Source of the DNA: an uncultured Calothrix sp.
GTDB taxonomy: Bacteria; Cyanobacteriota; Cyanobacteriia; Cyanobacteriales; Nostocaceae
DNA length: 64,000 nt
Reading direction: 5' to 3'
NCBI GenBank assembly: GCA_937973965.1
Contig: CALJJQ010000094.1
Span: forward strand, 1 to 64,000
In this document: positions 3,717 through 46,930 of the stretch, piece by piece
Numbering within the stretch: the first letter of the stretch is position 1
Layout of the letters: the number at the start of each line of letters is the position of its first letter
Notes under the pieces: generated by a model
What the model was told of the DNA's origin: nothing
Databases searched by the model: none
The model's input: only the letters and a program-made list of their open reading frames with translations
Position numbers and translations under genes: made by a program

Positions 3717-3924
3717 CTACCTTTTTTATACCAATACAGTTCAGTTTCGGATAATTTAATTGTGATTCAGGAGAATTGTCGCTTGGATCGGCGTAATATC
3801 GATTCTTTTGTACTTTGCAATAAATGAAACTAGAATAATCAATGGTTACAGCCCCTGATATGTAGCCAGCATTAGCGTAAACGATATAAAAGATATCAAT
3901 CCAAAATCCGACGAGTATCCCCAC
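3685..3924 (-). CDS. Small hypothetical protein with a paralogous fragment nearby
   Basis: The frame starts at a GTG at 3924 and encodes 79 aa. Its N-terminus is hydrophobic (ILVGFWIDIFYIVY), followed by NAGYISGAVTIDYSSFIYC. About 30 codons of the same protein sequence recur on the plus strand near 6247-6345, and most of the differences are silent or conservative. That pattern suggests the segment was once under protein-level selection. I do not recognise the family. It may itself be a remnant, because an in-frame TGA lies just upstream of the hydrophobic stretch. Confidence 0.4.
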   Translation of the reverse strand: MGILVGFWIDIFYIVYANAGYISGAVTIDYSSFIYCKVQKNRYYADPSDNSPESQLNYPKLNCIGIKKVDAISVSDGHN

Positions 3925-4539: not shown

Positions 4540-4644
4540 GATTAATGCAATCACGTTGAATATTAATACTAGCTAGTTTAGCGATTCTTGTGGGCACAAG
4601 TAAACTAACTTGGGAGTTGGGAGTTAGGGATTGGGGTTGGGAGT

Positions 4645-4780
4645 TAATACGGTTCGGATCAGAAAAGTCGTAAACCCCAAATAATTGTAGAGACGCGTTA
4701 GCGTTCACCTCCTCTGAAAGAGGCTACATCGTGTTTCCCTCCCAAAATCACCACAAAAAATCATTAACCTAACCCTATTG
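4645..4780. repeat. MITE-like element, family B (full)
   Basis: The left edge reads AATACGGTTCGG and the right edge AACCTAACCCTATTG, an imperfect inverted pair whose consensus is CAATACGGTTCGG. A GAGACG-type segment lies in the middle. A second full copy lies at 46316-46421 and a partial one at 6116-6183. No coding capacity, so a non-autonomous mobile element is the simplest reading. Confidence 0.65.
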
Positions 4781-4938
4781 ATTGGAAGTTAGGGGTTAGG
4801 CAATAAGAATTATTTCAGATTTGGCTGTGTCAAACTTACTAGTTAAGTGATTACCAACACCAAAATGCAGATGTATCTTTCATCACATCTGCACATCCCA
4901 GGATAGTCAATATCATGGGTGTTTTCATGGGCTATAAA

Positions 4939-6115: not shown

Positions 6116-6183
6116 TATTGTAGAGACGAGATATATCGCGTCTCCCGAAACCACAACGAAAAATCATTAACCGAACCGTATTG
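6116..6183. repeat. MITE-like element, family B (partial, left end lost)
   Basis: The right half of family B is present: a GAGACGAGATATATCGCGTCTC palindrome, CCCGAAACCACAA, and the terminal CCGAACCGTATTG. The left inverted end seen at 4645 and 46316 is missing. Confidence 0.6.
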
Positions 6184-6228: not shown

Positions 6229-6390
6229 GTGGAAAGTTGTTTATGGTGTAATATCGTTTACACTAATGGTTGCTACATATCAGGAGCTATAACCGTTGAT
6301 TACTCTAGTTTCATTTATTGCAAAGTACAAGATAATCGATATAAGCATTGGATGTATACTCATCAATTCCTCTGCATCAAGGGAGGATAG
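6229..6390 (+). pseudogene. Fragment paralogous to the 3685-3924 gene
   Basis: Translated on the plus strand, this stretch gives IVYTNGCYISGAITVDYSSF and then IYCKVQDNRY, matching the protein encoded by the minus strand at about 3790-3895. The match covers only about 35 codons and ends in a TAG near 6390. No convincing start codon precedes it. It is best read as a duplicated gene fragment. Confidence 0.5.
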
Positions 6391-6434: not shown

Positions 6435-6550
6435 CCCTGGATTTCTCACGAGTAAGTCGTAAACCTTGAGTAACGAATTCATTTTCCTTCTATTCACTAC
6501 TCCCTAATCCCTACTCCCTGTGAGTTTTAGGGTTTTGTGAGAAATGCGGG
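6435..6550. repeat. MITE-like element, family D
   Basis: The ends CCTGGATTTCTCAC and GTGAGAAATGCGGG are inverted repeats of each other. The inner sequence contains TAACGAATTC and ACTCCCTAATCCCTACTCCC. An inverted-orientation copy is at 21334-21434, with diverged relatives near 23180-23252 and 46565-46660. The element lies just downstream of the ABC permease stop codon. Confidence 0.6.
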
Positions 6551-27677: not shown

Positions 27678-27955
27678 GGGATTTTGGATTTTGGATTTTG
27701 GATTGGTAATTTGGTAATAATAATATTTTTTTGACGAAGAGACGCGATATATCGCGTCTCTAGGTATATCTGGACATGTTGCAAACATTTTCTGAATCAA
27801 TATCAGATAACATTAACATGAAAAAATTTGAATACCCTTGTACAGAAGTAAACAACATTCCAGAAGTCGGATTTTGATGATAATTTTTTTTATTGTCAAT
27901 ATCCGCCTGAAAAATTCGATTTCTCACCCACTCCCCATTCCCGACTCCCTTCAAT
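27678..27955. repeat. STRR and GAGACG palindrome between sufD and sufS
   Basis: Directly upstream of the sufS start, on its strand, lie three to four ATCCAAA heptamers (27679-27706). A GAGACGCGATATATCGCGTCTC palindrome is at 27738-27762. The remainder holds no gene. Tight spacing of sufD and sufS is usual, so this spacer appears to be an expansion by repeats. Confidence 0.7.
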
Positions 27956-41934: not shown

Positions 41935-42764
41935 AAATGCTTGTGGGTAGGTTTAATTGGAAGTAGTTACACGTCTGTTAATAATGCGTTGTCGATGGGG
42001 AATCAGTCAACTGATTGCGGTGTCAGCTTTTTACATCTATACACTTTACACGATGAATGAGTAGAGACGTAGCAATGGTGCGTCTCTACACAACGTAAAA
42101 TTTTCAATTCATATTTGTATTCAGCAACGCCAAAAATTTCATCTGTCCTACTGGTTTGGCAAAATGCAATACAGTTCAGTTAGGCTTAAAAGCCTGATTA
42201 TTGGGTAGGTTAGGTTGAAGAATGTAGAAGCAGTGCCTAGGCTGTGTAATTTGTGCCTTTTTTGCGGTCGCAAATTCATGCATAAACCGTGACAACAAAC
42301 TTGTTCCAATACTCCGGCTCTTGATACATACAGGGAAGCTCTGCTTCCTGATTTGAGGCAGTAGCCCTCGTGGAATGCGCGTAGCGGGTATTACGTACGC
42401 GAAGCGTTGCCGCAGGCTATTACGAATTAATCATGTCTTTCTCAAAGCTATAGTAAAATTATGTAAGTTGTTTTACCTTTTTTAACACATCTTGAAAAAA
42501 GCGTCCGGAAAAAAATATTTGTAGATGTGATTTTGATAGCAAGATTTAGTGATTGCGATCGCTGACAATGGCAAATAGGTGGTGCAGGTTTCTTCTGTAC
42601 CATCTATCGCCTTTTTTTGCTGTTACTACGTACTTTTTCTCAGGTGCTATACCCGCAGGTTTGTCCTAGACTAGCGCTACTAAATGCCTTTCATTACTCA
42701 TCAAAATTAATGGGACAGACCAGTAGTTCCCGATAAACGGAGTTTTCCAGGTATATTTTGCTAT
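41935..42764. other. Repeat-rich intergenic region, 830 bp
   Basis: No gene. In order: a GAGACG-type inverted pair at 42062-42089, family H repeat at 42168-42251, family E unit at 42378-42428, an AT-rich stretch, and the edge of a family A copy at 42645-42722 (GGTGCTATACCCGCAGG, CTAGACTAGCGCTACTA). The promoter of dapL is at its left end. Confidence 0.65.
42378..42428. repeat. Family E repeat unit
   Basis: GCGCGTAGCGGGTATTACGT, ACGCGAAGCGTTGCCGCAGG and CTATTACGAATTAA match units at 14912, 46174, 55886 and 56719. Confidence 0.7.
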
Positions 42765-46173: not shown

Positions 46174-46262
46174 TTCGTAATAGCCTGCGGCAACGCTTGG
46201 CGTACGTAATAGCCTACGGCAAGCCGCTTCGCGTCTATGTAATTTGTAATACCCGCTACGGG
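46174..46262. repeat. Family E repeat, double unit
   Basis: TTCGTAATAGCCTGCGGCAACGC, CGTACGTAATAGCCTACGGC and CGCTTCGCGTCTATG are inverted relatives of the 14912-15011 repeat; TACCCGCTACGGGG ends it. It covers the start-proximal DNA of the NarL-type regulator. Confidence 0.7.
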
Positions 46263-46315
46263 GGAAGGAAGCTAGGTGATGACGCAGTGTGGTTTCTTTT
46301 GTGTAAGTCCGATTT

Positions 46316-46421
46316 CAATAGGGTTCGGAGCAGAAAATTCATAAACCCTAAATAATTGTAGAGACGAGATATATCGCGTCTCCCGAAACCACAAAGAAAA
46401 ATCATTAACCGAACCGTATTG
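46316..46421. repeat. MITE-like element, family B (full)
   Basis: CAATAGGGTTCGG on the left and CCGAACCGTATTG on the right form 13-bp inverted ends with one mismatch. A GAGACGAGATATATCGCGTCTC palindrome is in the centre. 106 bp long and non-coding. The copy at 4645-4780 has the same ends. Confidence 0.75.
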
Positions 46422-46930
46422 AGTCCTATTTATGAACAATCTGGGTATGGGGATGGTGACAGATATCCTCAATATAGCGGAGTTTTGAGGGCTAATTGTA
46501 AAGTTAATTTAAAACCAATGTCCGATGATGGCTGTTTCGGTTAGATATGGAGTGTGGATAAATCCTATATTTCTCATAAGGCAGTGATAAGCCATTGAGT
46601 AATGGGTTAATTTTTCTACTTGATGTGGAGGGAGGGGGAAGTAGGGAGTTGTGAGTAGTGTAATGATGTGGGAAACTTGTGAAGTATTTAGGAAAAAAGT
46701 ACTGTTAGGGAAATATTCCACACCTAAACATGGCTGCTAATTTGGATTCTCCGTCACTTCTCTCCACATTTCTCAAAACCTGATCAAACTTAGATTTATG
46801 ATGCGTTTTGCACTGCGACAAAGTTATGACTAAAGATTACGAGATGGGCGATCGCTCTGACTAGTGAGAAATGCGGCATTCTGTCTCCTATCCCCTGTAT
46901 CCTGTATTTTGTATTCTTCTCAGATTGTTT

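Follow-up and report, generated by a model that had tools for sequence, protein, structure and literature searches.

Family B, dispersed through the genome of the filamentous cyanobacterium Calothrix considered here, is very probably a MITE, a 106-bp non-coding relative of insertion sequences (IS) of the IS4 family, IS4 subgroup, that has been moved by a transposase acting in trans. Its ends are those of that subgroup, it is flanked by 10-bp target-site duplications, one site that it occupies is cleanly empty in a close relative, and the same ends and duplications lie on transposase-coding elements of related cyanobacteria. The GAGACG hairpin (family F) at its centre is probably cargo that a forerunner of B picked up and that has been carried since. 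The sequence-only reading had B as a MITE with a GAGACG core and took the mobility of B as a possible explanation for how F spreads; what it observed is partly confirmed, and its interpretation of the two families is supported in part, B being a MITE while the spread of F has to be accounted for otherwise.

The window, that is the whole 64,000-nucleotide stretch of DNA that was analysed, corresponds to contig C94 of a 5.4-Mb draft genome, and its features are collected in the table. Eight matches to the end motif occur in it at up to two mismatches, with 1.02 expected and 4 in the largest shuffle. Two full copies with near-perfect 13-bp inverted ends had been proposed, each with a palindromic GAGACG core. 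This stands for the copy at 46316-46421, whose ends match at 12/13 and 13/13 positions and whose hairpin core is intact, whereas the copy at 4645-4780 is weaker, its ends matching at 12/13 and 11/13 and its hairpin being interrupted by 27 nt in the loop and mutated in the right arm. Folded as single-stranded DNA the former has a z of -2.80 and the latter one of -0.78, which is no better than shuffles. A third copy, at 6117-6183, had been recognized as one end short and does indeed lack its left end; as its ortholog in Calothrix sp. NIES-3974 retains that end, the window copy is a deletion product. Orthologs in NIES-3974 exist for all three window copies, and all three are located between ORFs (minimum length 90 aa). 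The sole Rfam match at gathering scores was tRNA.

Table. Features in the window that relate to family B, the probable MITE, and to a sister element (strand + or, where none applies, a dot)
Feature	Position	Strand	Remark
Complete family B MITE, 106 bp	46316..46421	+	ends CAATAGGGTTCGG and (reverse complement) CAATACGGTTCGG; NIES-3974 ortholog present
Left copy of 10-bp target-site duplication, AGTCCGATTT	46306..46315	.	9/10 identical to right copy
Right copy of 10-bp target-site duplication, AGTCCTATTT	46422..46431	.	partner of 46306..46315
GAGACG-type (family F) hairpin core inside B	46358..46382	+	within the 46316 copy
Family B MITE, 136 bp, decayed ends, interrupted hairpin	4645..4780	+	
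Probable left target-site repeat, GTTGGGAGT	4636..4644	.	7/9 against ATTGGAAGT at 4781-4789
27-nt piece in hairpin loop	4698..4724	+	NIES-3974 ortholog without the piece
Family B MITE, left end lost by deletion	6117..6183	+	
Sister element, left part, IS4-type end CAATACAGTTCAGTTA	42167..42380	+	right end not found in window

Genome-wide, the end CAATACGGTTCGG has 49 matches at no more than one mismatch (8 for the reversed control), some of which belong to sister elements with CAATACGGTTCAG ends, and the 106-bp copy gives at least 57 BLAST matches in its own genome, 40 of 307 candidates having been scored. By script, 52 distinct copies with both ends were assembled from the own genome, NIES-3974 and other relatives, B and sister types being pooled; with 10 orthologous rows removed, the duplication count was made on 42, which still include one pair of orthologs, the 4645 copy with its equivalent in NIES-3974. 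The copies share their boundaries, and 10-bp duplications of at least 80% identity flank 33 of the 42, against a permutation mean of 0.6 and a maximum of 3. Flank identity is 0.81 at a length of 10 and near background at lengths of 2-9 and 11-16, and such a target-site duplication of fixed length is, like a short non-coding body of 106 bp with 13-bp terminal inverted repeats, a property by which MITEs are recognized. Among the 20 own-genome elements, 15 have at least 8 of 10 duplicated positions identical, two have 7, and the remaining three have 3, 1 and 1. The 4645 copy is one of the nine elements below 80%; it has 3/10 in the 10-bp register, the adjacent one giving an imperfect repeat of 9 bp. 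Target preference is discernible in 34 well-matched left repeats, a few orthologs included: each of positions 1, 2 and 4 is G in 21 of them, and position 3 is A or T in 29.

Movement itself can be seen by comparison with NIES-3974, in which counterparts were sought for 15 own-genome loci by means of their left flanks. Among the 15, L009 is the one clear case of mobility: its counterpart in NIES-3974 (L126) is a cleanly empty site holding a single GTAGTTGAGG. Seven copies (L004, L005, L007, L013, L018, L019 and L047) are recognizably common to both species. With the three window copies, which have orthologs there too, this dates most of the compared B copies to before the two species split; at least one arose later, or has been exactly lost. 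Partial remnants are present in NIES-3974 at L012, L014 and L015; at L016 tandem GAGACG palindromes replace the element there and the left side differs, and for L029 there is no ortholog among the matches listed. Some B copies also have short tandem duplications of the right half of the hairpin (L108 3730-3857; L020 1438-1553).

These data leave barely any credence for the notion that B is a palindrome of the REP-like or regulatory sort, not transposed at all but spread through recombination or the action of a Y1 (RAYT) transposase. In favour of that notion, the window copies of B are intergenic, and F begins with GTAG as do the GTAG-type REPs in the portion of PMC3733652 available, which are likewise short intergenic palindromes; the GTAG of those REPs is an unpaired tag, whereas in many copies of F, for instance at window 30702, L081 and L082, it is paired with CTAC. 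The 10-bp duplications, the empty site and the IS4-type ends all argue against it, as do the lack of any terminator-like site in 46200-46600 and the absence of GAGACG or CGTCTC from all three stretches fetched around own-genome PF01797 matches. Movement of F driven by RAYT was sought at these three loci and not found. Two promoter-like sites lie in 46200-46600, both outside the B element (shuffle mean 0.9).

A search for a full-length transposon with the same ends, which the sequence-only reading had proposed, succeeded in relatives (L060, L062 and others) and gave nothing in the own genome. Matches to PF13006 (Nterm_IS4) occur in 19 of the 60 genomes searched, and at 7 of the 20 PF13006 loci fetched both ends, of the CAATACNG type, are present and convergently oriented, spanning 898 to 2194 bp. 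The flanking duplications are 10/10 at L057, L059, L060 and L062, 9/10 at L064 and 7/10 at L051, while L056 has both ends and a value of 4/10 that amounts to none. The L060 element, of 1501 bp, has CAATACGGTTCGGTTAAG on both sides and that of L062 is 1541 bp; the ORFs of both match Nterm_IS4, DDE_Tnp_1 and NCBIfam NF033592 (transpos_IS4_1), and the L060 ORF has the YREK signature in the form Y-2-R-3-E-6-K (YHQRWEVENTIDELK). For the IS4 subgroup the portion of PMC2266710 available gives a length of 1400-1650 bp, ends of the form -AATR--------WTW----, repeats of 10-13 bp and YREK, and the relatives' partner elements agree with it in ends, size, repeat length, YREK and transposase type, the full ones being 1487-1541 bp with Nterm_IS4 and DDE_Tnp_1. 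B resembles the subgroup, as characterized there, in the type of its ends and in its 10-bp duplications; unlike an IS of the subgroup it is 106 bp long and has no transposase gene. Positions 14-16 of its left end are ATC and not WTW in most own-genome copies, whereas NIES-3974 and other genera have ATA. No evident sequence is common to B and the IS past the first 16 to 18 bp.

The lack of a full-length partner in the own genome would suit an origin of B's ends from another DDE family whose ends merely resemble those of the IS4 subgroup. Such an origin is extremely unlikely: the same 16-18 bp ends together with the 10-bp duplication are found on NF033592/PF13006-coding elements, and none of the eight PF01609 matches in the own genome has such ends (CAATACGG) at the element borders, L075 showing a neighbouring B half only. 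At L026 (~1545) and L075 (~1095) the left half of B stops in the loop beside DNA with a PF01609 transposase match, which looks like insertion of an IS into the B core.

A DDE transposase supplied in trans would recognize the CAATACGGTTCGG-type ends of B and join the element to a target whose two strands are cut 10 bp apart, giving the 10-bp direct repeats, and insertion would favour sites beginning GG(A/T)G; an IS4-subgroup copy with CAATACGGTTCGGAT ends in the own strain, if there is one, would be the direct parent. PF13006 was not found in the own draft genome or in NIES-3974, and because no such transposon was found in either, B looks orphaned in its own lineage, from which the source of the IS4-type transposase that presumably moved it would have been lost. 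No genome was found to have both B and a matching full-length element (G068, G073 and G081 being outside the PF13006 search), and in G004, the sole genome covered by both searches in which a PF13006 match accompanies B-like sequence, no such ends are present at the fetched locus. In classification, type I MITEs are those with ends in common with an IS, according to the portion of PMC3542288 available, and in the terms given there B resembles them in being short and non-coding with terminal inverted repeats, target-site duplications and dispersed copies; within its own genome it would be filed as type II, because the same-ended IS was found only in other genomes.

B is not alone in having these ends. 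Sister non-autonomous elements with CAATACAGTTCAGTTA ends include L032 and L042, of 212 and 349 bp and both with 10-bp duplications, and the own genome has sisters, L034 and L042 among them, that match B both in their ends and in having 10-bp duplications. The stretch at 42162-42380 of the window has 13 further matching places in NIES-3974. Other repeats were encountered close to the window copies. One of ~97 bp, at 6246-6344 and inverted at 3793-3889, has over 20 matching places in NIES-3974; the copy at 6246 is missing from that genome and seems to have a TA duplication, and the repeat is likely another MITE. A further repeat at 6436-6550 has at least 15 matching places in NIES-3974.

With regard to the hairpin, the proposal that F is nested in B is supported anatomically, as a GAGACG hairpin is at the centre of B in all eight genera in which B was found. 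This constancy, and the existence of decayed B copies, would agree with B being the vehicle of F and with the other GAGACG palindromes being leftovers of such copies, a relationship that is very unlikely and already largely refuted. The own genome has 253 palindromes of the form GAGACG-N4-26-CGTCTC (control 3), in several loop classes. When 150-bp flanks of the first 50 of them were inspected, one being shortened by a contig start, B arm sequence adjoined 3 of the 50, and the reversed-sequence control matched 2 of 50 (L188 and L191, 13-14 bases). A cruder comparison of coordinates places at least 4 of the 50 near B, and at least 7 of the 50 for the GATATATC-like class, on the basis of 45 of the at least 57 B matches, the 12 omitted covering the core alone. 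The flank test carries more weight because flanks were inspected directly, while the coordinate list rested on the 40 of 307 candidates scored. Five sister elements with the same ends (L032, L034, L035, L042, and L096 at 405) have no F, so the hairpin is not needed for movement or for the working of the ends. From the 3 of 50 and the F-less sisters it follows that F is cargo of B and not its product; on counts, B is rejected as the explanation of F.

F also occurs, and differs between the species, away from B. A long-loop GAGACG hairpin is carried by a different repeat as well (L149-L156 and L160), whose start is GTAGGTGGGTGG-like and whose end is GCACCTACCTA-like. The window F sites at 27739, 30705, 39600 and 36741 are common to NIES-3974. 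At about 6504, where the window has a run of heptamers, NIES-3974 has a perfect 29-nt palindrome of the F type, GTACAGACGACCCGTCGGGTCGTCTGTAC (GTACAGACG...CGTCTGTAC; L119 4492-4520), inside an ACTCCCT heptamer array and with no B nearby in the alignment; F can therefore come or go without B, gain and loss both being possible there. At three loci (L016, L019 and L003/L088) B entered, or stopped at, the arms of F. If target fractions of 0.54% to 2% are assumed, 3 of 21 gives a binomial tail of 0.0002 to 0.008; the sites had, however, been noticed beforehand, both the fractions and the denominator are rough, and the target remaining in the own genome at L016 and L019 is half a palindrome.

The 27-nt piece in the loop of the 4645 copy has 23 matches in the own genome (29-nt pattern, up to three mismatches; control 0), of which 12 are in B or its remnants and 11 elsewhere, several of these in one other repeat. 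By inspection, all 23 occupy GAGACGCG^...^TATATCGCGTCTC or a mutated version of this site, the right arm being missing in one case. The window copy has the long loop and its NIES-3974 ortholog the short one, while the arrangement is the opposite for L007 (short) and L123 (long); because orthologous loci differ in both directions, the loop change recurs at the same place, and it may come about by gain, hairpin deletion or conversion between copies. The NIES-3974 short form is without the A of standard short hairpins, so loss in NIES-3974 is at least as likely as gain in the window, and with L007 and L123 reversed as well, a fresh insertion in the window copy is not established. The small dispersed repeats (SDR) of Nostoc reported by Elhai et al. 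in 2008 are said to occur in diverse contexts, and the piece is like them, as they are reported, in size and in being found inside a minitransposon and inside hairpins; unlike them, it has all 23 of the copies found in one kind of site. An arrangement of three nested and interacting tiers of repeats in these cyanobacteria is unlikely; in it B would both carry and enter the F hairpin, F would itself be mobile and be lodged in several carriers unrelated to one another, and a 27-nt element would enter the F loop and nothing else.

B-like sequence (E no greater than 1e-8) was found in 10 of 100 genomes searched, from 8 genera with the own genome counted. An exact-pattern scan of contigs, from which records near the own genome may be excluded, gave five stretches, in Plectonema cf. 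radiosum LEGE 06105 and Calothrix NIES-3974. The core hairpin is fuller in other genera, TGTAGAGACG...CGTCTCTACA, and the right side in the window lineage has lost TACA. In a Plectonema copy the fold pairs both the ends and the core (z -8.87) and is stronger than that of the 46316 copy. Nezha, from Anabaena and Nostoc, is like B a cyanobacterial MITE, and its partner and ends are reportedly ISNpu3-like. The B element is not described in the available portions of the literature searched, which included PMC3733652, PMC10969869, PMC3116915, PMC3542288, PMC2246112 and PMC2266710 with supplements outside the search, and literature matches to the end, IS-end, hairpin and insert strings were unrelated by title.

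That B is an ordinary kind of element, now assigned to the IS4 subgroup, is well supported, and the assignment gives a mechanism, with IS4-subgroup ends and 10-bp duplications, to a repeat that could be mistaken for a regulatory palindrome. The MITE is now separated from the hairpin that it carries, and how F spreads becomes a sharper question since B does not account for it. The two close species provide loci at which the direction of each insertion, deletion or 27-nt loop change can be worked out singly, and the 27-nt piece, should it move independently, would rank with the smallest known mobile sequences that are site-specific.
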